IMG/VR virus record: IMGVR_UViG_3300036828_001009 | Span: 1-32,041 of that record | Reading direction: 5' to 3' (one strand) | Source of the DNA: a virus | Length of the DNA: 32,041 bases | Shown: positions 6,825 through 32,041 of the stretch, piece after piece | Layout: every line of letters starts with the position of its first letter | Position numbering within the stretch: the stretch's first letter is position 1 | Notes under the pieces: generated by a model | The model's input: the letters and a program-made list of their open reading frames with translations, nothing else | The model's database searches: none | What the model was told of the DNA's origin: nothing | Translations under genes and position numbers: made by a program

Positions 6825-7107
6825 CAAGTTCAGCCTTCCATGCCACCAAGAACTCGGGATCGCCACGAAGACGCCGCATCATCTCCGCAACCTCACGTCT
6901 ATCGATTTCGATAGCTCCCTTCTGAATTGCTAGTGTACGCTTGCCAAGCGCGACGTCATAGTGCGGAAAGCTAAACGGCTGGAACCACTTACGCAGGAGA
7001 CCGATCCTTGCTGCCATAGTGTGCAGCTCGACCAAGTCATCTGCCAGCATGTGGCACATAACCATTCGGCCATATGAGTAACGGCCTCGGTCGACATAGA
7101 CGGGCGT
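6778..7107 (-). CDS. DUF4031 family protein with apparent ACG start
   Basis: The 109-residue frame reads PVYVDRGRYSYGRMVMCHM from residue 2, then LADDLVELHTMAARIGL and PHYDVALGKRTLAI. This is the full conserved core of DUF4031, a family of unknown function common in phages and actinobacteria. The family N-terminus lies upstream of the first ATG (7065). No in-frame ATG, GTG or TTG precedes it. A perfect GGAGG sits eight bases before an ACG at 7105-7107, which overlaps the dpdA stop as TAACG, one base from the common TAATG coupling. I therefore start the gene at ACG. A start at 7065 would lose 14 conserved residues. Confidence 0.8.
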   Translation of the reverse strand, partial: TPVYVDRGRYSYGRMVMCHMLADDLVELHTMAARIGLLRKWFQPFSFPHYDVALGKRTLAIQKGAIEIDRREVAEMMRRLRGDPEFLVAWKAELDDRRYPLNARRPQIR

Positions 7108-8021
7108 TAGATGATCCTCCGTATTTCGAGCTCGAAACGTTCGGTATGGAGATCGTAGAGCTCATCCATCTCGTTGAAGGCTTTGATATTGAAGGCAGCA
7201 CGCGCCTCGTAACGCTCGGCTAGTCGCTGAACGTCAAAGCCCTGCTTTTCGATTTCTTTGACAATGACCGCTTGCTCGATCGGTGTCACGTTGATCAGGT
7301 GCTGCCCACGGATGTGACGGAACGGTGACTTAGTCGAGATCTGTACAGCACCGTAACTGGTAACGATACCTCCGAAGCTGGCCGTCTGGATCCATGACGA
7401 TGAATCGCAGCTTGCCCAGGGGTAGCGCTTCATCAGCATGACGCTGGTGATGCCGAAGCCATGCACCTTGACCTTTGGGCGTCCGGCACCATCTATCAGA
7501 TGCTCGTCCCACATCCTGTCAAGCCACTTGCGGAGCTCTTCAGGACGGGCACCGACCATACCACCTAGCGTGATGTATTCGTAATTGGCGACGTAATGGT
7601 CGAGGTACTTCTCATCCTCTTCGGCGTGGAAGCACGGCAGCGGGCGCACGCCTAGGCGCTCCATGGCGCACTGGTTCTGGTAGGTTAGCAGCGCGTCACC
7701 AATACCGTCCAGCACGCTGACCATCTTGATACCGTCCTCGACGCGCAGGATATCGTCGTTCTCGTGGATATACCGGCAATAGTCAGTAACGCTGAGGTCG
7801 ATACCCAAGGTGTGGGCGCTGTAGGCGCCTGAGTCAAGAAACACCTTGATGCCGGTTTCGCGCAGATGCCTGACTAGACGCGGTCCCTGGACGTAATGGT
7901 ATGATTCCAGGTCGCAGTTAAGCTCACGAACGGCAGACTGCTCACGCCCGTTCAGCTTGATATAAACGCTGCCGCCCGGCGCGTAACCGTTAGAATGGAT
8001 GGCGGCAGCGTAGATCTTCAT
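7107..8021 (-). CDS. dpdA: DpdA: DNA guanine transglycosylase (7-deazaguanine insertion)
   Basis: A 304-residue TGT-related enzyme. In phages, DpdA exchanges guanine in DNA for a 7-deazaguanine base such as preQ0. FLDSGAYSA (Asp63) matches the substrate-binding DSGxF/Y motif of TGT enzymes, TLGGMVG (151-157) the conserved GG loop, and KVHGFGITS followed by CDSSSW (Asp206) the region of the catalytic aspartate. It lacks the long C-terminal domains of archaeal tRNA enzymes and sits with preQ0 synthesis genes, so DNA rather than tRNA is the expected substrate. It starts two bases after a 49-codon gene and its stop overlaps the DUF4031 start. Confidence 0.88.
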   Translation of the reverse strand: MKIYAAAIHSNGYAPGGSVYIKLNGREQSAVRELNCDLESYHYVQGPRLVRHLRETGIKVFLDSGAYSAHTLGIDLSVTDYCRYIHENDDILRVEDGIKMVSVLDGIGDALLTYQNQCAMERLGVRPLPCFHAEEDEKYLDHYVANYEYITLGGMVGARPEELRKWLDRMWDEHLIDGAGRPKVKVHGFGITSVMLMKRYPWASCDSSSWIQTASFGGIVTSYGAVQISTKSPFRHIRGQHLINVTPIEQAVIVKEIEKQGFDVQRLAERYEARAAFNIKAFNEMDELYDLHTERFELEIRRII

Positions 8022-8023
8022 GC

Positions 8024-8173
8024 TTACCAGCTAGGACCTAGGTGACCGTGAACGTGTACCGAATAATTCCAGTACATCTGGAGATAATGATCAAGGCGCG
8101 GATTGCGTGACTTGAAGGCCATCAGTTTCTTGCGTCGGTACTTCCGCAAACGATGATAGTGCGACCACTTCAT
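8024..8173 (-). CDS. Small basic protein between folE and dpdA, 49 aa
   Basis: The 49-codon frame begins MKWSHYHRLRKYRRKK and ends HVHGHLGPSW. It starts in an ATGA overlap with the folE stop and ends two bases before the dpdA ATG, exactly filling the gap. It is strongly basic, with a Lys/Arg helix at the N-terminus and a His-rich C-terminus. Nucleic-acid or DpdA binding is possible; no family is recognised. Coupling to both neighbours is the main evidence that it is translated. Confidence 0.65.
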   Translation of the reverse strand: MKWSHYHRLRKYRRKKLMAFKSRNPRLDHYLQMYWNYSVHVHGHLGPSW

Positions 8174-8751
8174 GTCGCTGCCAGGTTAAAGAACTCGGCA
8201 CGGGCTGAGGGGTCGTTGAGCAGCGCCCCGCGCAGCGCGCTGGTCACTGTGTGGTGCCCTTGCTGCTTGGCACCGCGTGCCTCCATGCACAGGTGGCGCG
8301 CCTTGACGACTACGCCGACGCCCACAGGCTTTAGGTGCTCGGTCAGGGCGTCAGCAATCTGTCCAGTCATGCGCTCCTGAACTTGCAGGCGTCGAGCGAA
8401 GATGTCAACGAGTCGGTTTATCTTCGATAGACCAACAACTCGGCCGTTCGGAATGTAGGCTACCGTGGCAGTGCCGAAGAACGGTGCCAGGTGATGCTCG
8501 CAGGTGCTGTAGAATGGAATCTCCTTGACCATCACCATCTGGTCGTACTTCTCGGCCCCGTCCTCGAAGCACTTGAGAACGTCAGATGGCTCGACATCAT
8601 AACCCGACGTATATTCGAGCCACGCCTGCGCAGCGCGCTTGGGTGTCTCAAGCAGCCCACCACGCCTGGGATCCTCGCCCAGCTCCATGAGCAGCAAGTG
8701 GATGGCACCCTGAAGCTTAGATGGGGACACAAGTGACGGCATTGGCTTCAT
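8170..8751 (-). CDS. folE: GTP cyclohydrolase I (FolE)
   Basis: Converts GTP to 7,8-dihydroneopterin triphosphate, the first step toward preQ0. The 193-residue protein has STCEHHLAPFFG near residues 82-93 with zinc ligands Cys84 and His87, QVQERMTGQIADAL near 121-134, and a late Cys in HLCMEARG as the third zinc ligand. These are the signatures of type I enzymes. The ATG at 8751 has AAGGA close upstream, and an ATG at 8742 is an alternative. The start overlaps the queD end by 35 bases. The length is normal for the family. Confidence 0.93.
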   Translation of the reverse strand: MKPMPSLVSPSKLQGAIHLLLMELGEDPRRGGLLETPKRAAQAWLEYTSGYDVEPSDVLKCFEDGAEKYDQMVMVKEIPFYSTCEHHLAPFFGTATVAYIPNGRVVGLSKINRLVDIFARRLQVQERMTGQIADALTEHLKPVGVGVVVKARHLCMEARGAKQQGHHTVTSALRGALLNDPSARAEFFNLAAT

Positions 8752-9166
8752 GTTCCTTGACTGTGACCTTGACGAGACGGACGCGGTGACTGGTGGCCTC
8801 ATCAAGCCACAAGGTCACATGGTCGAAGATGTAGAGAGCGAAGGCTTCGCAGCCCACCTTGGGCAAGACTATGGTGCTGGCGATGCCGAGCTCTCCAAGA
8901 TGAAGCAGCGCTTCCTTCTCGGGATCGTCATCTGCGATTAGCAGACGATGATCGAACATGGCTTCCAGCCAGTTCTTGATCGGCTTTAGACCGCCAAAAT
9001 CTATCACCCAGCCTTCCGGGGTCAGCGAGTCAGCTTCGAATGTAAGCTCTACTTGCAGGGCATAGCCGTGCAAGTGATGGCAGTGGCTTTCAGCCTGCCA
9101 CTGACGGAAGCAGCAGCTAAGACCCAGGCTGTGCGGGTAAACCTTGGTGACTGAGAAGGCGGGCAT
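8717..9166 (-). CDS. queD: 6-carboxytetrahydropterin synthase (QueD)
   Basis: Turns dihydroneopterin triphosphate into 6-carboxy-5,6,7,8-tetrahydropterin, the substrate of QueE. The 149-residue protein carries SHCHHLHGYALQVEL with the catalytic Cys29 and zinc-binding His33, then WVIDFGGLKPIKNWLE and FDHRLL, all typical of QueD. The usual HGH reads HGY here, and SCCFRQWQAESHC replaces the classical AAH motif, placing it in a divergent phage-type group. The ATG at 9166 has GAGG five bases upstream. A GTG at 9253 is a possible longer start. Confidence 0.88.
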   Translation of the reverse strand: MPAFSVTKVYPHSLGLSCCFRQWQAESHCHHLHGYALQVELTFEADSLTPEGWVIDFGGLKPIKNWLEAMFDHRLLIADDDPEKEALLHLGELGIASTIVLPKVGCEAFALYIFDHVTLWLDEATSHRVRLVKVTVKEHEANAVTCVPI

Positions 9167-9479
9167 CACTGCCTCGTTTTTTAGGGGTGATCGCTTTTTC
9201 TTCTGATTGATGATAGATACCGTTTTCTTTGGTATCGTCGTAATACCAGACACCTCGAACTCGAGGATACTTTAGATATTCGTACCTCTTGACAGGGCGC
9301 CAGTGCAGATAAGGGGTGAAACGTTGTTGAAGCTCTTTAAGTGATAGAGCTATATCTCCGCCCTTTACAACTCGGCCTAGCTCCCTGGCTATCATCGAGT
9401 TACTGAGAGGATCTCGATGCCTTAGAACACAGACAAAGCATCGATAGTGCAGACCCTCTGGGTTCATCCGCAGTTTCAA
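9117..9479 (-). CDS. Hypothetical protein inside the deazaguanine operon, 120 aa
   Basis: The frame starts at a TTG (9477-9479) that overlaps the gat-queC stop as TTGA. A perfect AGGAGGT lies six bases before the TTG; the first ATG (9467) is too far from it. The protein has CFVC near the N-terminus and a Tyr/Arg/Lys-rich middle (RPVKRYEYLKYPRVRG). It is less GC-rich than gat-queC and overlaps queD by 50 bases. No family is recognised. The strong ribosome site argues that it is translated. The part after residue 100 may be only read-through into queD sequence. Confidence 0.55.
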   Translation of the reverse strand: MKLRMNPEGLHYRCFVCVLRHRDPLSNSMIARELGRVVKGGDIALSLKELQQRFTPYLHWRPVKRYEYLKYPRVRGVWYYDDTKENGIYHQSEEKAITPKKRGSDARLLSHQGLPAQPGS

Positions 9480-10750
9480 GACGTTACCTCCTCTGACGTC
9501 ATCACTGGATCCGTCAGGCCGTTGATCTGGTGTGCGATGCGGCGCATGTAGCACGGGCCACAGGTGCCGCAGTGATGCACGCCAGCACGATAACAGCTCC
9601 AAGTCAAGTGGATGGGCGCCTTCAGCTCATTGCCCAGCTTGACGATCTCCCGTTTGGTGAGGTTGCCTACGGGTTCGATGATGCGCACCCGCTTGCCATC
9701 GGCCACTGCAAATGGCAGCATGTCGTTCACGCGCGCGATGAACTCCTGGACGTTGTCGGGGTAGGCACCAGCCTCTTCGATGTTATTGCCTAGCGCGATG
9801 GTCTCGATACCGCGCGCTTCGGCCATGGCTGTGGCGATCGCGATCATCACTAGGTTGCGGGCTGGTACCCATTCGTAGGCGAACTCGGCTCCAGCCTCAC
9901 CGCCAGCGATCTGCGAGTCAGCACGCAGCAGAGGGCTGTCTGCCGGGCGGTAGATCGGCAGTTCCATGAGATGGTAGGGTACACTCAGATGATTGGCGAT
10001 CGCCTTTACAGCCCGAAGCTCCGGGCCCTGTGCCCGTGAACCGTAGAGGAAGTGCAGAAGCTCGACCTCATAGCCTTCGTCAAGCAGCTTCGTGGCTACC
10101 ACGGTCGAGTCCAGCCCACCGCTAGCGACCACAAGTGCGCACCGCGGCTCCGCTAGGCCTGGAGCAGGTGATAAACGGACCGCAGGCTTGCCGATTCTGA
10201 ACATCCAAGTCGAATACGGCTCGATCATCCGCGGCGTCAAGTCGCGCGGGAAGAACTGTCGAGCGCTGGCAAAGAGGATAGCTTGCGGCGTCACCGCGTA
10301 CCAGAGCGCCTGGTAGTTGACGGCGACGTAGAGGGCATGGAACCTCTCGTGGAAGCCGATGATCGCGTAGCTGCCTTTCAGCTTCTCGATGACGCCTTGG
10401 AACTTGGCACCCACCATGTGCTCGTCGCAGCCCAGCATGTCTTCCTCGGCCAGCAGCTCAACGATGGCAGCGCTGTCGATGCTGGTGGGATGACGATGGG
10501 TGCGGAGCTCCTTGTCGTTGGCAATCGTGCCGTTGTGTATGATCGCCCAAGAACCGGTCCTGTAGGGCTGCTGGTCATAGCGATGCTTGGTCTTCACATA
10601 CTCGGTGGTAGGCTCGGCGCGGAAGTTGGCGATGTAGCGATCGTCATTCTGGTGGCTGCCAAAGCCGTCGCGCCCACGCTCGGCGCTCAGCGCCAGAATC
10701 TTGTCGAGCGCGAGGCGCGAGTAGCCAATCATTCCAACCAGTGCGCACAT
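9476..10750 (-). CDS. gat-queC: Gat-QueC fusion: class II glutamine amidotransferase + 7-cyano-7-deazaguanine synthase
   Basis: A 424-residue two-domain enzyme. The N-terminal domain is a class II glutamine amidotransferase: Cys2 is the nucleophile after Met removal, with RGRDGFG at 25-31 and HNGTIAND at 72-79. From about residue 205 it is QueC: SGGLDST at 210-216 is the ATP pyrophosphatase loop, and a four-Cys zinc cluster (SCYR then CGTCGPC) lies near the end. QueC makes preQ0 from CDG. In Escherichia phage 9g the same fusion goes with deoxyarchaeosine (dG+) in DNA, so the amidotransferase probably supplies ammonia to turn the preQ0 nitrile into the amidine. GGAG lies about ten bases before the ATG. 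Confidence 0.94.
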   Translation of the reverse strand: MCALVGMIGYSRLALDKILALSAERGRDGFGSHQNDDRYIANFRAEPTTEYVKTKHRYDQQPYRTGSWAIIHNGTIANDKELRTHRHPTSIDSAAIVELLAEEDMLGCDEHMVGAKFQGVIEKLKGSYAIIGFHERFHALYVAVNYQALWYAVTPQAILFASARQFFPRDLTPRMIEPYSTWMFRIGKPAVRLSPAPGLAEPRCALVVASGGLDSTVVATKLLDEGYEVELLHFLYGSRAQGPELRAVKAIANHLSVPYHLMELPIYRPADSPLLRADSQIAGGEAGAEFAYEWVPARNLVMIAIATAMAEARGIETIALGNNIEEAGAYPDNVQEFIARVNDMLPFAVADGKRVRIIEPVGNLTKREIVKLGNELKAPIHLTWSCYRAGVHHCGTCGPCYMRRIAHQINGLTDPVMTSEEVTS

Positions 10751-10753
10751 GAG

Positions 10754-10948
10754 TCAAGTTCTCCAGATGAGAAGGAAGCGGCCGTCTCCGATGCGGAGGC
10801 CGTGCGGGAGACCGAAGCGCCCGCGTAGGTAGGCTGGGCAGGAGAAGCGCCAGTTGGCGGCGGCGATGACGCGCAACGCACGACGCAGCGTGCAGCGCGA
10901 GCGGACGGGCGGGTTGATGGTAGAACGACCGAATGAGCTGAGTTGCAT
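10754..10948 (-). CDS. Small Arg-rich protein between queE and gat-queC, 64 aa
   Basis: The 64-codon frame begins MQLSSFGRSTINPP and has about a dozen arginines (for example SRCTLRRALRV). The ATG has GGAG eight bases upstream and the stop lies three bases before the gat-queC ATG. That fit in the operon is the case for a real gene. Composition suggests a nucleic-acid- or membrane-associated peptide; no family is recognised. It could also be a spacer frame that merely happens to be open. Confidence 0.5.
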   Translation of the reverse strand: MQLSSFGRSTINPPVRSRCTLRRALRVIAAANWRFSCPAYLRGRFGLPHGLRIGDGRFLLIWRT

Positions 10949-10977
10949 AAGCGGGTCTCCGTTGCTGATGACCCTGT

Positions 10978-11670
10978 TTATGGCAATCCGATGATCTTAT
11001 GCAACTGCAAACTTAGACGATATCCAAAGCGCCCAACGCTGGCGATCGCAGCCGTCAGGTTGGCTGTGTAGTTCTCCTCGTCTGCGGGCTGCACATAGAC
11101 CTGTCCCGGCCACTTAGCGGGAGGCCGTGCTACACGCGGATGAGCGGTGTGCCCGAGCACAAGGCGCGGTAAGCCGTCTAGCGGGTCGATGCTGTCCGCA
11201 CTGAGCACGTACTTGGCAGTCTGAGCGCGCTGCCAGATGCTGTCATCAACCTTGCCAGTCTTCGGGCTGACGACGACATGGACGTTCTGGTGGGAAGGCA
11301 GATGGAGCGGCAGCGTGCCGTTGGTCTCGATCTGCACTGTGAAGCCTGACGACAGCAGCTCGCTGACGAAGAACGAGATGTTCTGTCGGAACGGCTCACC
11401 GCCGGTAATGACGACCAGCTTGATCGTCGCGCCCGCAAGCGCCTCGACTTCTGCCAGCAGCGGGTTGATGGACTTACGCTCGCGCGTGCTGGTGTAGTCG
11501 GTGTCGCAGGCTGGGCAGCACAGGTTGCAGCCCGCTAGGCGCACGAAGATGGCAGGAGTGCCGACGAACGGCCCCTCGCCTTGGATGGTAGCGAAGACTG
11601 AATGAACATCGAGTGCGTGACCAGAGTTGGTAACGAGCTTCTCGATGGCCTGAGCGTTGAGGAGTTTCAT
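10978..11670 (-). CDS. queE: 7-carboxy-7-deazaguanine synthase (QueE), radical SAM enzyme
   Basis: Converts 6-carboxytetrahydropterin to 7-carboxy-7-deazaguanine. At 230 residues it is normal for QueE. SVFATIQGEGPFVGTPAIF (24-42) is the family N-terminus, LAGCNLCCPACDTDY holds the CxxxCxxC iron-sulphur cluster motif, and ITGGEP is the SAM-binding GGE motif. It heads the deazaguanine operon and is separated from the upstream gene by a terminator hairpin. GAGG lies seven bases before the ATG at 11670. All steps from GTP to preQ0 are therefore encoded here, with no QueF, so preQ1 is not expected. Confidence 0.93.
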   Translation of the reverse strand: MKLLNAQAIEKLVTNSGHALDVHSVFATIQGEGPFVGTPAIFVRLAGCNLCCPACDTDYTSTRERKSINPLLAEVEALAGATIKLVVITGGEPFRQNISFFVSELLSSGFTVQIETNGTLPLHLPSHQNVHVVVSPKTGKVDDSIWQRAQTAKYVLSADSIDPLDGLPRLVLGHTAHPRVARPPAKWPGQVYVQPADEENYTANLTAAIASVGRFGYRLSLQLHKIIGLP

Positions 11671-15820: not shown

Positions 15821-15895
15821 TGGCCCCTCCCCGAGGGTTCGAACCTCAATTTCTCGGACCAAAGCCGAGCGTCCTACCGATTGGACGAGGGAGGG
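15821..15895 (-). tRNA. tRNA-Gln (anticodon TTG), CCA encoded
   Basis: A 75-base cloverleaf folds fully. The acceptor stem is CCCTCCC/GGGAGGG. The D arm is GTCC/GGAC with the loop AATCGGTA. The anticodon stem is CTCGG/CCGAG with loop CTTTGGT, giving TTG. The T arm TGAGG/CCTCG has loop TTCGAAC and one G-T pair. The discriminator base is G, usual for tRNA-Gln, and CCA is encoded. It would read CAA codons during phage growth. It lies between a terminator and a small gene, within the P6 unit. Confidence 0.9.
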
Positions 15896-22962: not shown

Positions 22963-23077
22963 TGCATCTACCCTCTTGCGCTGCTATATGTGTTGGCGCA
23001 GCGCCTTCGGGTGGTGTTTGGCATGATGATGGTCCTTCCCATCTCTCGGAATCTGCCAGGCGCTTGAGACACCCGGA

Positions 23078-23100
23078 GGCTGCTGCATCCAGCAGCAGCC
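23078..23100. repeat. Nine-bp inverted repeat (GGCTGCTGC / GCAGCAGCC)
   Basis: Perfect nine-base arms around a five-base loop, followed at 23105-23119 by a second hairpin (CGAAG, TTACG, CTTCG). Neither has a U-tract on either strand. They would form in the leader RNA of the primase-helicase gene on the minus strand and may control stability or translation. Confidence 0.5.
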
Positions 23101-23193
23101 ATAACGAAGTTACGCTTCGCAGTGACGTCATACAAGTCGCTAGATCTAGTGGTTTGACTGGTTGAACCCTACTAAAATTGTAGTCTTATTCAA

Positions 23194-23280
23194 TGTAACT
23201 CGATTGTAACTGGAAAGTAATTCAGGAATCATCGAAAAAGTGTAAGTAAAACAATACTGTAATTCTGTAATCTATGTAAT
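23194..23280. repeat. AT-rich cluster of TGTAA(N) direct repeats
   Basis: Six copies of TGTAA (starting 23194, 23205, 23241, 23258, 23266, 23275) and one AGTAAT (23216) lie in 87 bases. The first three are exactly 11 bp apart, one helical turn, so a protein could bind them on one face. An ATATATATAT run follows. The layout suggests an iteron-type replication origin or a regulator array. Confidence 0.5.
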
Positions 23281-23315
23281 CCGTATATATATATTAGTAG
23301 GTGTATAACCTAATG

Positions 23316-23344
23316 TTACGTGTATTCTAATAATATACACGTAA
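23316..23344. promoter_or_regulatory. Operator-like inverted repeat with a degenerate leftward promoter block
   Basis: Ten-base perfect arms TTACGTGTAT (23316-23325) and ATACACGTAA (23335-23344) flank nine bases. On the minus strand TTCGCTTTAC (23341-23350), the upstream block of the repeated promoters, overlaps the right arm. A CATAAC-type -10 is not clear at 17 bp, so this is at best a degenerate seventh copy. It is a candidate switch for the leftward early operon. Confidence 0.4.
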
Positions 23345-23352
23345 AGCGAACA

Positions 23353-23361
23353 GGTAGTATG
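23353..23361 (+). promoter_or_regulatory. ops-like core in the leader of the NusG/RfaH-like gene
   Basis: GGTAGTATG matches the conserved core GGTAGnnTG of the ops element that recruits RfaH to a paused RNA polymerase. The three bases upstream of the core do not match the ops consensus. A nine-base pattern with two free positions can occur by chance; the interest comes from its place in the leader of a NusG-family gene. Confidence 0.3.
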
Positions 23362-23422
23362 TAACGTAGTTTACGCAGTGGCGATTATTACCCCGATAGC
23401 GACTACAAATGCTTGTTTTTCA

Positions 23423-23468
23423 AGTATATGTGCGCTAAAGGGCCCAGGCCCTTTTGCGCACATATACT
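23423..23468 (+). terminator. Very strong leader hairpin before the NusG/RfaH-like gene
   Basis: Thirteen-bp perfect outer arms (AGTATATGTGCGC and GCGCACATATACT), a T-T mismatch, then seven-bp inner arms (AAAGGGC and GCCCTTT) with loop CCAG. On the plus strand CTTTTC follows. It ends 11 bases before the AGGAG of the gene. It could be a terminator, an attenuator, or an insulator separating the late unit. Confidence 0.6.
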
Positions 23469-23496
23469 CTTTTCAGGCAGGAGCAGCCGTAATTGC

Positions 23497-24090
23497 ATGG
23501 CGTGGCATGTCGCGAGTTGCGAGTCTGGACGGGTGGGTATGGCCGCTGAGTTGCTGAAGGCTGATGGGCAGGATGTCTTCTTGCCTCTCATACGTGAGCA
23601 TAGACAGGTGAAGGAGCGCGGCCATGTGTGGGTCAACAGTGTGGAGCGACCACTATTTGGACCTTATCTGTTTGTGGATGGGGAGGTGGATACTAGAGCG
23701 CGCTATGTGATTAGCGTGCTGAAGGGTGCGGGTTCTATTGGGGTGGTGCCCCCAAAGGTAATGAATGCTCTCATTGAAAGCGCTGATGACCAAGGCGTCG
23801 TTGTTGGGCGGGAACTGCCTAGGCTGGTGCGCAGCAGGTGCATAGACTTTGTTGCGTCGCCGGGCGATCTGTGCAACGTAACTATTTCGCTCCAAAAGCT
23901 TATTGGAGTAATCCAGGACGTATCTAGAGTAGAACGCACTGGGTTTGTTGATGTACTAGTTGAGATGTTAGGTATGCAGTGCAAGGTCAACTTGCACTAT
24001 ACTGATGTCCAACTGGTATCCCGGTTGCCGCCCTCTGGGCAGAACAGGCGGGAGAGACGAGCCGGGATAGTTGCAGGCTCGCCTGCATAA
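23497..24090 (+). CDS. NusG/RfaH-like transcription factor
   Basis: A 197-residue protein with NusG N-terminal domain features: MAWHVASCESG, ELLKADGQDVFLPLIRE, and PLFGPYLFVDG near 52-62. The segment SPGDLCNVTISLQKLIGVIQ, then FVDVLVEMLGMQCKVNLH, is a KOW-type SH3 domain near 118-165. NusG-family proteins bind RNA polymerase and keep it processive; RfaH members act at specific operons. As the first rightward gene before terminase and portal, it may drive late transcription by antitermination. The ATG at 23497 has AGGAG 13 bases upstream, rather far. Upstream codons would cross the leader hairpin and are rejected. The C-terminus is Arg-rich. Confidence 0.8.
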   Translation: MAWHVASCESGRVGMAAELLKADGQDVFLPLIREHRQVKERGHVWVNSVERPLFGPYLFVDGEVDTRARYVISVLKGAGSIGVVPPKVMNALIESADDQGVVVGRELPRLVRSRCIDFVASPGDLCNVTISLQKLIGVIQDVSRVERTGFVDVLVEMLGMQCKVNLHYTDVQLVSRLPPSGQNRRERRAGIVAGSPA

Positions 24091-24151: not shown

Positions 24152-24775
24152 ATGGCTGGCAAGGACTTGGTGCCTGTGCCAAGTCCGCCCAGGCATTATG
24201 GTTGGACGCCTGGCACCGGTAGACCGTCAATCTATACTGAGGAGATTGCGCAGGAGATTTATCGTAGAACGGCAGAGGGCGAGCCGATGGCTTGGATCTG
24301 CCGCGACGCGCATATGCCGTCAACGCGAACGGTGTATGATTGGCAGCACCGGATGCCAACCTTTGCTGCTGAGCTTGAAATAAATCAGCGACTCGGACAT
24401 GACGCTCGAGCGGCTTGGATCCTTGAGGAAGCCTACAACCCACGGGTTCAAGAAGAGCGGACGATCACCTACGGTGCCAACGGGCAGACTGAGCTGCGCA
24501 TCCGTAAGTTCGACAACGTGTACCGCTCAAGGCTCATTGTTGACACCACGATGAAACTGCTTGGGCAATGGGATGCCCGCTATCGTCAACAAGCCATCAA
24601 CGAACTAGCTGCCCGCGATGCTAGTGCCGAGGCTGAGCGCATCACCATTGAGGGTGGGCTGCCGCCTGACGCCACTAAGACGAATGGCAGTACACCGCCG
24701 AACGCCAACGGACATGATACCGATGCCGGAAGCGCTGGTGGGCTCGAAGATCCCACCAATGGCGAGACACCTTAG
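24152..24775 (+). CDS. Terminase small subunit
   Basis: A 207-residue protein. YTEEIAQEIYRRTAEGEPMA, then WICRDAHMPSTRTVYDWQHR, is the helix-turn-helix pattern of phage small terminases (MPSxxTVxxW), which recognise packaging sites on DNA. A long helical middle (oligomerisation) and a disordered C-terminal tail rich in Asn, Gly and Pro follow. The ATG at 24152 has GAGG eight bases upstream. The large subunit follows two bases after the stop. DNA recognition by the HTH is inferred. Confidence 0.85.
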   Translation: MAGKDLVPVPSPPRHYGWTPGTGRPSIYTEEIAQEIYRRTAEGEPMAWICRDAHMPSTRTVYDWQHRMPTFAAELEINQRLGHDARAAWILEEAYNPRVQEERTITYGANGQTELRIRKFDNVYRSRLIVDTTMKLLGQWDARYRQQAINELAARDASAEAERITIEGGLPPDATKTNGSTPPNANGHDTDAGSAGGLEDPTNGETP

Positions 24776-24777
24776 GC

Positions 24778-26184
24778 ATGCTGGACACCACTGTCACGCT
24801 GCCGACCTTTCACATCGATCAGGTGCGCCTGCTTAATAGGTACACGGACAATCGATGGATAGGTGATGCCAAGTGGGCTGCTAATGGCCCGCAGTTCAAG
24901 GCTGTCCGCTGTGGGCGGCGCTACGGTAAGACTACTTTTTTGGAAGCTTGGGAGGGCGACGGAGCTATCAAAGGTTGGCCGTGCGGGTACTTCGCACCGA
25001 CCTACAAGTATGTCTCGGAAGTCTACGAAGAGATGCACGAGATGCTTGACCCTGTGCTGAAGCGCAAGGGCGGCCACAACAAGACAGACATGATTCTCCG
25101 TCTGCGGACAGGCGGTTCAATTGAATTCTGGACACTGGAGGATTCCAGGGCAGGTCGTTCGCGCAAGTATAAGCGGGTGGCAGTAGATGAGGGCGCCTTC
25201 TGCAAGAACGCTACAGCAGAGTTTCCGAAGGGCCAAGCTATTGAAACTTGGCGTCGCAGCATCAAGCCTTCTTTAGGTGACTTGCGTGGTTCGGCTATTG
25301 TCGCCAGTAACACCAATGGCGTCGATCCTACCAACCTGCTGTACGCGGCGTGCAACGACCCAGACATGGGCTTTATAGAGCATCACGCGCCCGCGTGGGT
25401 CAACCCGCACGTACCCGAGCGCTTGCCCGGGCAGTCTGTTGAAGACTGGCGGATGGATTGGCGAGCCTACTACGCCAACCTTCGCACTACTGAGCATCCG
25501 CTGGTCTTCGCGCAGGAGTATGCAGCCGACTTCGTTGATTGGTCCGGAGTCAGCCTATTCGACTTGCAGAAGATGTTGGTGGACGGACAACCGGTGCCTG
25601 AGCCAGCGCGCTGCGGCGCTGTGTATGTCCTCATTGATACATCAACCAAAGTGGAGAAGATGCACGACGGGACGGCAGCCACTTACTTCGCGCTGATGCA
25701 GCACGGTGGGCTGGGTTACAGGTTGATCGTCCTGGATTGGGAGTTGCATCAGATAGAAGGCGCCTTGTTAGAGACTTGGCTGCCTACCGTCAAGCAGAAT
25801 GCTGAAGCGTGGGCCGAGCGTTGTGGTGCGGTGAATGGCTTCGTCGGCGGGTTTATTGAAGACAAGGACTCTGGACAGGTCTTGATTCAACAAGCCCGTC
25901 GACGTCGCCTGCCGTTTGGCGCTATTGCCAGCGAGCTGACAGCACTGGGCAAGGATGCCCGCGCGCTGAGTATTTCGGGTTATGTGTACAGAGGATTGGT
26001 CAAGCTGGCGCGTACTGCTTATGAGAAGACGTCCATCTACAAGGGCGTCACGCGCAACCACTTTGTCAGTCAAGTGACTGGCTTCAAGATGGCCGATAAG
26101 GACGCTGAAAAGCGGGCGGATGACCTGCTTGATACGTTCACCTACGGTGTGTCGCTTGGGCTTGGTGATGGTCGAGGCTGGTGA
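24778..26184 (+). CDS. Terminase large subunit
   Basis: The packaging motor and nuclease, 468 residues. Walker A is RCGRRYGKTT (44-53), Walker B with the catalytic Glu is RVAVDEGAF (about 133-141), and the coupling-type motif ASNTNG is near 180. The RNase H-like nuclease has YVLIDTSTK (about 281-289), EDKDSG near 361 and RADDLLDTFTYG near 447. It translocates DNA into the procapsid through the portal encoded downstream. The next gene starts in a TGATG overlap with its stop. Only a weak AGG precedes the ATG, so coupling to the small subunit is likely. Confidence 0.95.
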   Translation: MLDTTVTLPTFHIDQVRLLNRYTDNRWIGDAKWAANGPQFKAVRCGRRYGKTTFLEAWEGDGAIKGWPCGYFAPTYKYVSEVYEEMHEMLDPVLKRKGGHNKTDMILRLRTGGSIEFWTLEDSRAGRSRKYKRVAVDEGAFCKNATAEFPKGQAIETWRRSIKPSLGDLRGSAIVASNTNGVDPTNLLYAACNDPDMGFIEHHAPAWVNPHVPERLPGQSVEDWRMDWRAYYANLRTTEHPLVFAQEYAADFVDWSGVSLFDLQKMLVDGQPVPEPARCGAVYVLIDTSTKVEKMHDGTAATYFALMQHGGLGYRLIVLDWELHQIEGALLETWLPTVKQNAEAWAERCGAVNGFVGGFIEDKDSGQVLIQQARRRRLPFGAIASELTALGKDARALSISGYVYRGLVKLARTAYEKTSIYKGVTRNHFVSQVTGFKMADKDAEKRADDLLDTFTYGVSLGLGDGRGW

Positions 26185-26585: not shown

Positions 26586-26806
26586 TGCGCGCCTGGTTTG
26601 CGCGCCTGCTGTTCATCGGCCTGCTGTCTATAGCTGGTGCCACTGCAACGTCGATTGCAGTTGCCATCATCCAGGCAACTGTAATGACCGGCTGGATACT
26701 GCCGATCATTGCCTTCGTAGCGTTCCTGGTACTGTCGACCTACGCGGTGGTGCTATGGATCCTTTATCTCGTCCTCGTTGACGTCTTGAACTTTGAAGGT
26801 CCTTAA
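26585..26806 (+). CDS. Small membrane protein, 73 aa
   Basis: Begins MRAWFARLLFIGLLSIAG. Hydrophobic stretches at about 7-30 and 38-67 predict two membrane segments (the second may be two), with a basic N-terminus and an acidic C-terminal end (VDVLNFEGP). Coupled on both sides (TGATG and TAATG). Its size and topology would fit a holin or another inner-membrane protein; no lysin gene is next to it, so I leave the function open. Confidence 0.75.
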   Translation: MRAWFARLLFIGLLSIAGATATSIAVAIIQATVMTGWILPIIAFVAFLVLSTYAVVLWILYLVLVDVLNFEGP

Positions 26807-28443
26807 TGGCCTGGAATGGCAGTGGAAATGGAAGTGTCAACGGCGGCTGGGGGTCGATGGACCCTTCGAGCCCGCTGTTTCAAATCCTCATGGCGCCAGA
26901 CATCGTGCCTGGTGACGAGCCATCATACGAGACCTGCAAGATCCTCTTGGCTTACCACCCGCTGGGGGACAAGCTGACGCTGACGCCGATTGAGCTTGCG
27001 CAGAGCCAGGATAGAATCATTACGGTGCAGGACGGACCTGAGGACGAGCTCAAGGAAGCCTTCCTCAAGGAGTGGGCGTCGCTGAAGGCCACTGAGCACC
27101 TCGCCACGCTGGGCCAGCTCAGCAGGGGCTATGGAATCAGCAGCATTGCATTGATGAGCGAAGGGACTCCTCTGGATCGACCGCTCAACAAGAAGGACTT
27201 ATGGAAGTCCAACATTGGTTTCAACCTGCTCGACCCGCTGAACACGGCGGGTTCCTTAGTGCTGGACCAGAATCCACAGAGCATCACTTTCCAGAAAGTC
27301 ATTGGGGTGCGGGTAGGCGGTCAGGCGTTGCATCGCAGTCGCAGTGTCACTCTGCAGAATGGCAGTCCACTGTATATCATGTGGACGTCCAGCGCTTACG
27401 GGTTCACTGGACGCTCCGTGTTCCAGCGTATCTTGTATCCGCTGAAGACCTACATTGAAGCCATGGTCACCAATCGCCTAGTGGTGCTGAAGACCGGCGT
27501 GCTGGTGGCGAAGATTCAATCACCTGGGTCGATCATCACTGAGCTGATGGAGCGGGTGGCAGGCATCAAGCGTGATATGGTGCGGGAGGCTTCAACTGGC
27601 AACGTGCTGTCGATCGGCACGGAAGATGATATCAAGTCGCTGGACTTCACCAATATGGAAGGGCCATTCAGCATGGCCCGCAAGTTTAACCTGGATGACA
27701 TAGCAACTGGCGCCGGAATGCCAGCAATCATTATCAATCAGGAGACGTTTGCTGAGGGCTTTGGCGAAGGCACTGAAGACGCCAAGAAAGTTGGCAAGTA
27801 TGTGTCAGGTATCCGTGTCTGGATGCAGCCTGCCTATACTTGGATGGATGAGATAGTAATGGCCCGGGCGTGGAACCCGGACTTCTACGAAACCATTCAG
27901 GCCAAGTACAAGGAACAGTATGGCAGCATGGCGTTCAATGCAGCGTTCTTCAAGTGGAAGAACAGCTTCCAGGCGCTGTGGCCCAACTTCCTCGAGGAGC
28001 CCGAAAGCGAAGAGATCCGCGTTGATGAAGTCAAGTTCAAGGCAGTTATTGCAGCGTTTGAGGTGCTTTACCCAACGTTGCCAACGCCTCTGCTGAAAGC
28101 CAACTTGATCCGTTGGTTGGAAGAGTGCTTCAATGAGCGCAAGGAGCTGTTCCCCAGTCCGTTGGAACTCGACTTCGAGGACCTGATCGCCGGCTTCGAA
28201 GAAGCCGATGCCCGTCAACAAGCGCAGTTCGAGCAAGGCGGCGAGGACGGCGAGGACGGCGAGAGTGGCAGTCAAGGCAAAGGGCTCAAGGAGCCGCCAC
28301 CGCCGAAGCCGTTTGCCTCTAGTGACTCAATCGAGGCGCATAAGGCGCGTGTGGCGCGAGCTGTGAGCGAATTGTCGCATGCCGTCGAAGCGCTGCCTGG
28401 TCTGCCGCGCCTGCCTGCTAAGGTGCGCGAGCTCGCTGCATAG
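26806..28443 (+). CDS. Portal protein (DUF1073-like)
   Basis: A 545-residue protein directly after the terminase block. LLAYHPLGDKLTLTPIELAQ, SRGYGISSIALMS and DLDDIATGAGMPAIIINQ-like features (here FNLDDIATGAGMPAIIIN) match DUF1073 portals, which form the dodecameric ring through which DNA enters the head. The C-terminal 80 residues are acidic then Pro/Lys-rich (GGEDGEDGESG). The ATG overlaps the upstream stop as TAATG. Some phages carry nuclease or anti-defence domains in this region; none is seen here. Confidence 0.88.
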   Translation: MAWNGSGNGSVNGGWGSMDPSSPLFQILMAPDIVPGDEPSYETCKILLAYHPLGDKLTLTPIELAQSQDRIITVQDGPEDELKEAFLKEWASLKATEHLATLGQLSRGYGISSIALMSEGTPLDRPLNKKDLWKSNIGFNLLDPLNTAGSLVLDQNPQSITFQKVIGVRVGGQALHRSRSVTLQNGSPLYIMWTSSAYGFTGRSVFQRILYPLKTYIEAMVTNRLVVLKTGVLVAKIQSPGSIITELMERVAGIKRDMVREASTGNVLSIGTEDDIKSLDFTNMEGPFSMARKFNLDDIATGAGMPAIIINQETFAEGFGEGTEDAKKVGKYVSGIRVWMQPAYTWMDEIVMARAWNPDFYETIQAKYKEQYGSMAFNAAFFKWKNSFQALWPNFLEEPESEEIRVDEVKFKAVIAAFEVLYPTLPTPLLKANLIRWLEECFNERKELFPSPLELDFEDLIAGFEEADARQQAQFEQGGEDGEDGESGSQGKGLKEPPPPKPFASSDSIEAHKARVARAVSELSHAVEALPGLPRLPAKVRELAA

Positions 28444-28745: not shown

Positions 28746-28898
28746 ATGGACTCGGTCGGCATCGGCATCGGCATCGGCATTGCCATCAGTCCTGAAACGC
28801 TGATTGGCGGCAGTGGGCTTTCTGATACTCGCATAACGACTACGGACGATATCCGTGTGACACCTGAGTTAGAGAATAGGGTCACAGAGAATGGCTGA
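28746..28898 (+). CDS. Small protein with Gly-Ile tandem repeat, 50 aa
   Basis: Begins [20 protein letters not shown]. The GI dipeptides come from a near-perfect 6-base tandem repeat (GGCATC) at about 28757-28780. The start is two bases after the previous stop and the end overlaps the fibre gene by eight bases. No Shine-Dalgarno is obvious, so translation by coupling is assumed. The function is unknown. Confidence 0.55.
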
Positions 28899-31800
28899 CG
28901 TCACAATTGAAGAAATTGTCCGTGAGCTGACTGCGCTGACGGGCAGCGAGTACCTTGAAGGTCAGGACCCAGGCGGGTCGTTCAAGGTCAAGACGCAATA
29001 CTTCAAGGGCGCGACTGGCAACACAGGGCCAGCTGGTCCCACGGGCGCCACCGGTCCGCAAGGCGCAACTGGCCTAACAGGGCCGCAAGGTCCAATTGGG
29101 TTGACAGGCGCCACGGGTGCTACTGGTCCTGCGGGTGCTAACTCAATAGTGCCAGGCCCACAAGGTCCACAGGGCACTCCTGGTACCCCAGGCGCAACCG
29201 GCGCAACCGGCGCAACCGGCGCAGCGGGTGCCGATTCAACAGTGCCTGGACCAACGGGTCCGACAGGTCCGATCGGGTTAACGGGTGCTACCGGCGCGCA
29301 AGGTACGCCAGGCACGCCGGGTGCTGCGGGCGCGACTGGCGCTACCGGGCCGCAAGGCCCGACAGGCTTGACTGGGCCACAAGGTGCGACTGGCGCCAAG
29401 GGTGCAGATTCAACAGTGCCGGGTCCGACAGGTCCGGCGGGTGCTACGGGCGCGCAAGGTGCGACTGGCGCACAGGGCGTCCAAGGCGTGCAAGGACCAG
29501 CGGGTGCCGATTCAACGGTTCCTGGCCCGCCAGGTCCCAAGGGCGATACCGGCGCTGACTCTACAGTGCCAGGTCCAGTTGGACCAACCGGTCCGGCTGG
29601 ACTGACTGGTCCGCAGGGGCCAGCAGGTGCTGCTTCGACAGTACCTGGGCCGCAAGGGCCGCAGGGTATCAAGGGCGACACGGGCGCCACCGGTGCGGCT
29701 GGTGCAGGTGGTGCAACGGGTCCGCAAGGGCCGCAAGGCGCTGCTGGTTCAGATGGCGCCACAGGTCCTGCTGGCCCTACAGGTGCCACAGGCCCCACAG
29801 GTCCCACAGGCACCACGGGCGCTACAGGGCCAACCGGCCCTGCTGGACCTATCGTGCCGCCTACCGCGACGACGCTGGGTGCTGTCTTTTCCAAGACAGT
29901 GACAGCGCATCTGTTCGTCACTGGTGTCGACCTTACCGGTGCATTGACGACTGCCCAACCTGCGGCGGCTGACATCACTGGACTAGCGCCCAGCGCGACA
30001 ACTGACACCACCAACGCGTCGAATATTACCTCAGGCACATTACCAGCAGCACGTCTGCCGCCACCCACAGCCACCACGTTGGGCGGCGTCAAGACCGTCG
30101 GTCCGAACGCCCACAACTTCCTGATCAGCATCGATACCGCCGGTACCGTCCAGAACGCGCAGCCGATATTCTCCGACATCGGTGGTGTCGCAACAGGCGC
30201 GCAGCTTCCCAATCCAACAACGTCATCCAAGGGCGGCGTGTTGGCATTGGCGCCTGTCGCAAGTCAGTTTGTAACTGGTATCAGCGGCACCAATGGTGCC
30301 CCTGTTACGGCGCAGCCTGCATTCACCGACATCAGTGGCACACTAAGTGTCGGCCAAATCCCAGCGCTCAATTACCTGCCGCTGGCTGGCGGAACGTTGA
30401 GCGGGGACCTCACTGTTGCCACTGCCAATGCCGGTCTCATATTAGCCTCTCCCGCCACCGGCCAAGTCAACAATCTCGACGGATATATTGCCGGCTCGCA
30501 ACGGTGGGAACTTGATCTAGGCAATGGAACTGCAGAAAGTGGCAGTAACGCCGGATCGGACTTTCAAGTAACTCGGTTCAGTGACACTGGGGTGTTTCTT
30601 GGTGCTGCTCTTACTATTAAACGCTCAACTGGTGTCGCCACACTTTCGGCCGTTCCAGCACTTCCCAGTCAAGCCGCCAGTCAGGTCCTAGCTGCGCCAT
30701 CTGGCGCGGCAGGCGTCCCAGGCTTCCGGGCGTTGACCTTTGGTGACATCAGTGGCACGCTGCCGCCCGCCCAACTGCCAAATGGTGCCTACCTGCCGTT
30801 GTCCGGCGGCATAGTGACGGGGAACTTGACACTTCAAGGGCCTGGGCCAAACGTCCTGAATATCGACAGCCCCACACCGGGTGTTCGCCCCGTCAACTTC
30901 ACCACTGCTAACGTGCTTCGCTGGCGTATTCTCGCGAACGCAATAGCTGAGGGCGGCAGCAACGCGGGCTCAAACTTCCTCATTAATGCCTTCGACGACA
31001 CGGGCGTTAGTCTAGGAACCGCACTGTCGTTCACCCGCTCTACCCTCGACGCTGTCTTCGGTGGCAACGTCAGCATCCCTACCGGCAAGACTTACCAGAT
31101 CAACGGTACGCCGCTGGCGTTCACCAATATTGCGGGGACGGTCGCACCCGCTCAATTGCCGAATACTACGGTCGCGCCAGGGTCGTACACCAACACCAAC
31201 CTCACCGTGGATGCCACAGGCCGTATCACAGCGGCTGCGAATGGGCCCAGCGGTGGTCTCGTACCGCCCACGCAGCTCACGCTGGGCGGGGTGTTTTCCT
31301 ACACTTCGCCAGCGCATCAGTTCCTGACTACTATCGACCTAACCGGTCAGCCGATCTCGGCACAGCCCTCTGCAGCAGACCTCTCCAACGGTGTCACCGG
31401 CACAGGCGCGGTGGCGCTGGCGACCTCGCCGACCTTGCCGAGCGGCGTCATCATCAACCCGCCTGGGGTGACGCAGTTCGACCTGGTGCAGCGGCCTATC
31501 GCCATAACTAACCCCAACGCCACCTTCTATCCGGCGACGCCAGCGACGCAGATGGTGGTGTCGCTGTTCCCGAACGGCGCACCGACTCTCAGCCCGACTG
31601 CGTTGGGGTCGGCGATCAACCTCTACGACGCCGATCTGTTCGCTAGTTCCACGTCCGGCCCGGCCAACTTCCTTCAGCTTGGCATGTATGGCGACGCGAC
31701 CCGGCTGACCGCCGGTTCTGCCAACGGCGCGACCCAGAAGCCGCTCGCGCTGCGGGTCGGGGCTGTCGATGCGCTCACCATCGACCTGAACCAGATCGTC

Positions 31801-32041
31801 ACGTTGGCGCACGCGCCTGTGTGGCCCGCGGTCAACCAGAACCGTGTCTGGGCTAGCCCTAACGGCGGTGGCTCAGGCGTACCCACGTTCCGCAAGATAG
31901 CTGGGTTAGACTTGCCGACTGCGACGGCTGGGAGCGGCCTAAGCGGGCAAGGCGCCATCCAGTCCTTGGCGGCGCAAACGCCTCACCAGTTCTTGACTGG
32001 GGTTGTTGACGTAAATGGCTTACCAGCCACGGCGCAACCAG
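28891..32041 (+). CDS. Collagen-like tail fibre/appendage protein (partial, runs off the end)
   Basis: An open frame of 1050 codons without a stop, cut by the window end. The N-terminal 43 residues ([17 protein letters not shown]) are followed by about 280 residues of Gly-X-Y collagen repeats, interrupted six times by ADSTVPGP-like punctuation. The rest consists of beta-type repeats: HQFLTGVDLTG-like then AQPxxxDIxG segments recur at about 29899, 30112, 30262, 31312 and 31984, alternating with YLPLxGGxxxGxLT modules typical of phage fibres. Such proteins form trimeric fibres that bind host surfaces. No glycine-rich tip or chaperone domain is reached. AGGGT lies about nine bases before the ATG. 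Confidence 0.88.

Follow-up and report, generated by a model that had tools for sequence, protein, structure and literature searches.

To our knowledge, NusG is the only universally conserved family of transcription factors. Most of what is known of its specialised paralogues (NusG-SP) comes from operons of bacteria and plasmids. RfaH of E. coli is a NusG-SP recruited at the ops sequence, which it reads through residues K10, H20, R23 and R73 (PMC5995543). UpxY genes begin the capsule operons of Bacteroides, and their products act on the leader of their own operon, where they keep transcription from ending too early within the untranslated region (PMC7315117). LoaP of Bacillus requires a leader RNA hairpin (PMC12691694). 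NusG and its paralogues contest a single site on the polymerase (PMC7819879). As to phages, a paper on the origins of RfaH mentions in passing rfaH-like genes on prophages, and one passage of a paper on a Helicobacter pylori prophage proposes a NusG-like elongation regulator, compared there with lambda N (PMC11321410); this regulator resembles the protein described here in being phage-encoded, NusG-like and a proposed regulator of elongation, and differs in that no argument from leader or gene position was made for it. A full-text search, with most subscription papers and preprints outside its scope, returned no paper on phage NusG paralogues as late antiterminators, and the main text of the paper on phage phi2LM21, which carries such a gene, does not mention NusG.

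The window, i.e. the whole stretch of DNA analysed, is a 32,041-base virus record (IMGVR_UViG_3300036828_001009, positions 1 to 32,041; G+C 58.5%). By the ORF map the early genes lie on the minus strand and the late genes on the plus strand, on either side of a divergent AT-rich intergenic region (22963..23496) in which both promoters are expected and in which no consensus sigma-70 promoter was found. The first plus-strand gene past this region (23497..24090, +) encodes a NusG-family protein of 197 amino acids composed of an NGN domain (residues ~1-97), a diverged KOW barrel (~115-174) and a basic C-terminal tail. It is followed by the genes for the terminase small subunit terS (24152..24775, +; Pfam Sf6_terminase 5e-15, phrog_1482), the terminase large subunit terL (24778..26184, +; phrog_2 8e-17, 43.6% identity to Shewanella phage QDWS) and the portal protein (26806..28443, +; Pfam Phage_portal_3, phrog_146 6e-45, 47% identity to QDWS). 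ORF map, Pfam and PHROG thereby bear out the preliminary description, which had placed the gene before terminase and portal at the head of the late operon; the interval it gave, 23353-24090, begins at an ops-like motif, but the gene proper runs from an ATG at 23497 to a stop at 24090. The gene is thus found between the early region and the terminase, as is that of lambda Q, which is alike also in its presumed role; lambda N is alike in presumed role, and both N and Q differ in belonging to protein families unrelated to NusG.

Among the early minus-strand genes, a Sak4-type annealing protein is ~70% identical to its counterpart in Pseudomonas phages of the Nipunavirus group. The same strand carries, at 7107-11670 (-), a gene set looking like a 7-deazaguanine DNA modification pathway, made up of a gene in the DpdA-like position (7107-8021, no Pfam match), FolE- and QueD-like ORFs, a GATase-QueC fusion (Pfam) and a QueE-like ORF; the set of Pseudomonas phage NP1 is identical in content and order. 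A tRNA-Gln with anticodon TTG is found within the early region at 15821-15895 (-). At the other end, 28891-32040 (+), an ORF of at least 1050 amino acids with collagen-like G-x-y repeats runs off the contig end and probably encodes a tail fibre or other virion appendage. PADLOC gave no result.

The window protein truly belongs to the NusG family, with an NGN domain at the N-terminus and, towards the C-terminus, a KOW domain that has diverged. It matches the Pfam NusG model (PF02357) with 26.6 bits (8.7e-6), above the curated cut-off of 22.2, and PHROG 6386, annotated as transcription antiterminator, with 7.5e-7. Pfam KOW gave no match to the protein; its KOW is diverged yet visible in alignments. 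A profile built from 29 phage NusG-family proteins, the window's included, matches full-length bacterial NusG at 1.6e-30 and RfaH at ~1e-25. Structure prediction against NusG and RfaH, the check proposed with the preliminary description, agrees with this assignment: AlphaFold gave a model with a pLDDT of 83.6 and a KOW beta-barrel at residues 115-174 when run on an alignment of phage NusG-family proteins, by which the model is partly steered towards general NusG-like proteins, and a useless model (pLDDT 29) when run on the single sequence. The best structural match of the predicted NGN is polymerase-bound RfaH (Z 12.7, 2.2 A over 92 residues), and the predicted barrel superimposes on the C-terminal domain of NusG, 2jvv (Z 8.1, 2.7 A over 58 residues). 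The Pfam match rests on the sequence alone and is independent of that alignment. The NGN and KOW features read earlier from the sequence therefore stand, the former by Pfam and the latter by alignments and predicted barrel. Used alone as query, the protein had no relatives in viral or genome contigs and none convincing in phages and plasmids; a joint query with the protein of its nearest relative (L093, see below) found none in genome contigs.

The preliminary description also called the factor RfaH-like; an identity as RfaH is not supported. Against the RfaH model TIGR01955 the protein scores 23 bits vs a cut-off of 144.5, and K10, H20 and R23 are replaced by E, L and A; the R73 position is R but lies beside a gap where the alignment is uncertain, so that at least three of the four ops-reading residues are replaced. 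The clamp-contacting Y54 and F56 of RfaH are retained as Y57 and F59. With these kept and the ops-reading residues lost, binding of the window protein to polymerase is plausible, and RfaH-style reading of ops is not. The likeness to RfaH extends to the NGN fold, the clamp-contacting Tyr/Phe and the proposed leader-proximal action on a long operon. Unlike RfaH, the protein is encoded inside its putative target operon, and whereas RfaH has an autoinhibited alpha-helical KOW that refolds, the window KOW is modelled, from a general NusG-like alignment, as a beta-barrel. The best NCBIfam match is the UpxY model NF033644, at 27.1 bits far under its cut-off of 100; the window gene is, like those of UpxY, first in its operon, but its putative targets are phage virion genes and no UpxZ partner is seen in the window. 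LoaP has in common with the window a NusG paralogue and a structured leader hairpin; it differs in that the window protein scores 14.4 bits vs a cut-off of 125 with the LoaP model NF033641 and in that the window leader is without an identified terminator.

An alignment of terL proteins yielded 80 related loci. A NusG-family ORF is present 0.57-1.4 kb 5' of terL in ten of them and farther off in two more, all twelve ORFs scoring above the cut-off of the Pfam NusG model; counting only the 61 loci with at least 1.7 kb of sequence 5' of terL, eight have it at that place. In most of the 80 loci no NusG could be detected near terL, which indicates that this late module can do without the factor. The Pfam model likewise found no NusG-family gene in QDWS, RothD, Yersinia 29.18, NP1 and MMDA13, phages with related terL or early genes. 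The nearest relative, L093, is 38% identical in NusG and 53% in terL and has the same gene order as the window: an opposite-strand helicase, then nusG, terS, terL and portal. Near-identical copies of its NusG protein are present in two further records.

The arrangement recurs outside this group, among phages of Rhizobiales and of cyanobacteria that are unrelated to it. A NusG gene is found just 5' of the terminase region in Sinorhizobium phages phi2LM21 and phi3LM21, Rhizobium phage PPF1, Mesorhizobium phage MseS-P1 and Nostoc phage Nsp-JY10, and, reckoned across the record ends, in Microcystis phage yong2; in Labrenzia phage LagS-V1 it lies near the record end. Two scans added 72 viral loci with NusG-family genes. 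In all 62 viral contigs with at least 3.5 kb downstream of nusG, terL follows on the same strand, 1.1-2.9 kb 3', and the best matches of these terL genes span six terL references, some only ~22% identical. PHROG 6386 is common to the window protein and the 16 rhizobial-type members scanned; the NusG of MseS-P1 is only ~25% identical to that of phi2LM21. The earlier idea of a late antiterminator at the Q position gains support, as far as position is concerned, from these NusG genes immediately 5' of terminase in unrelated phages. Relatives at the same spot in so many unrelated phages suggest a way, so far undescribed, by which phages may prevent host RNA polymerase from stopping within their late genes.

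The rhizobial phages (phi2LM21, phi3LM21, PPF1, MseS-P1) share PHROG 6386 and gene position with the window and are unlike it in that nusG is the last gene of a collinear early operon, with a conserved RNA element and, in most cases, a terminator after it. Directly 3' of the nusG stop in the rhizobial-type loci is a conserved non-coding stretch of ~160 nt which ends GTGC-N4-GCTATG (examples among L011-L088 are L055:5658-5814, L007:6490-6653 and L042:5634-5775). A model search found the full element, in one copy, in 74 of 75 rhizobial loci, the 75th having a fragment at the contig end. In its 3' 62 nt, 20 alignment cells are changed on both sides of a kept pair, vs 4.8 in shuffles, and the signal is destroyed when the partners are slid as a control. 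The model of this 3' part also matches Nsp-JY10 and MseS-P1, MseS-P1 being itself in the training set; it found no such element in the window or in the terL relatives, and no Rfam family matches the element. An intrinsic terminator follows in 66 of 73 rhizobial-type loci, mostly ~10 nt on and ahead of terL, and this is what an antiterminator would need to overcome. A processive antitermination system would be expected to show just this order of nusG, RNA element, terminator and late operon. As the window is without the element, the rhizobial mechanism is not directly transferable to it.

For the window protein, family, fold and operon position are established, as are the conserved order nusG-terS-terL-portal in L093 and the recurrence of this position in unrelated phages; polymerase binding, a recruitment signal and antitermination are inferred. 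The protein is probably a phage-encoded NusG-SP acting as processive antiterminator of its own late operon. With host RNA polymerase still in the ~150-nt leader, the NGN would attach to its clamp helices, outcompete host NusG there and remain bound through nusG, terS, terL, portal and the genes beyond, so that pausing and termination, whether Rho-dependent or intrinsic, would be suppressed. As nusG is first in the operon, the layout is that of the Bacteroides UpxY operons and would give a self-reinforcing switch. The main gap of this reading is the terminator that would have to be overcome: in the window no clear one was found, either in the leader or from nusG to terS. If nusG is made only together with the late genes, the source of the first molecules would also count against it.

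Two versions of this reading differ in how the antiterminator would be recruited. In one version, possible but in our view doubtful, recruitment would be RfaH-like, the NGN reading GGTAGTATG as an ops-type mini-hairpin on the non-template strand while the polymerase is paused. This ops-like core, a statistically weak candidate recruitment site at 23353..23361 (+), lies 144 nt before the ATG. The match to GGTAGnnTG noted in the preliminary description is real, but the motif occurs three times in the window vs 2.5 expected, i.e. at chance level, so that its significance was rejected as far as the window by itself goes; for the 200-nt leader taken separately the approximate shuffle probability is 0.017. 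L093 has GGTAGATATG 126 nt before its start, and this near-equal distance makes it possible that GGTAGTATG has an ops-like role. The relaxed pattern GGTAG-N0-2-TATG has an approximate shuffle probability of ~1.5e-4 in the L093 leader, but was picked after being seen there; the strict pattern is absent from that leader, and MAFFT gave no meaningful alignment of the two leaders. GTGC-N4-GCTAT, which matches the motif conserved in rhizobial phages and is reminiscent of ops GGCGGTAGCGTG, is present in the leaders of L103, L101 and L111 (approximate p 0.007, 0.037 and 0.033) and would favour RfaH-like reading, but in the window the rhizobial motif does not reach significance (approximate p 0.073) and its best score is at a different place; the loss of K10, H20 and R23 also weighs against RfaH-like reading. 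All these leader motif values, like those for the hairpins of relatives, come from an approximate shuffling routine applied to several regions and are indicative only. Just 5' of the ops-like site is a perfect 10-nt inverted repeat, TTACGTGTAT-N9-ATACACGTAA (23316..23344), single copy in the window and possibly an operator or promoter element. Long inverted and direct repeats of GTGCAGATGA-like units are found in another leader 5' of a phage nusG (L116:1336-1434).

The other version, which we hold to be rather unlikely as well, is LoaP-like: the protein would recognise as RNA the 20-bp two-part leader hairpin, which had been noticed from the start and is real. It consists of 13+7 bp around one mismatch (23423..23468, +), ends ~29 nt before the nusG ATG and is followed by CTTTTC; its folding energy of -34.2 kcal/mol vs a shuffled mean of -13.4 (z -8.47) is extreme. 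The hairpin requirement of LoaP itself, the unusually structured leaders of L100 and L129 and the covarying RNA beside nusG in rhizobial phages agree with such a role; the absence of the hairpin from L093 (z +0.44 by approximate shuffling) and the low LoaP score do not. Across phage nusG genes strong leader hairpins as a general trait have weak support (Mann-Whitney p 0.034; strong in the window, L129 and L100, absent in L093 and L107). The hairpin may also have nothing to do with the protein and instead stabilise the mRNA, attenuate weakly or serve as an operator, an explanation to which we give somewhat less than an even chance. Terminator prediction did not call it, the tail after the stem holding four T only and no terminator-grade T-tract, and L093 has no counterpart of it; in favour of a connection are its strength and its location right in front of the gene. 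An effect in trans is improbable: the protein would then displace host NusG so that Rho is blocked or the transcription of the host is changed, and that its gene opens the late operon would be a coincidence. Such a takeover could build on the competition of NusG and its paralogues for one polymerase site, but early expression would fit it better than late, and proximity to terminase recurs in many terL lineages.

Taken over all loci, we lean slightly towards specialised NusG paralogues forming a widespread and essentially undescribed class of late antiterminators at the Q position in several unrelated late-module families; the rhizobial ones would use a dedicated structured RNA of ~160 nt whose end, GTGC-N4-GCTATG, closely precedes an intrinsic terminator, and the phage of the window would be a divergent member with leader signals of its own. 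If true, N and Q would be joined by a further type of phage antiterminator, and several phages with the gene would provide compact, testable systems for the recruitment of NusG paralogues, the rhizobial ones with a covarying RNA and a terminator alongside.
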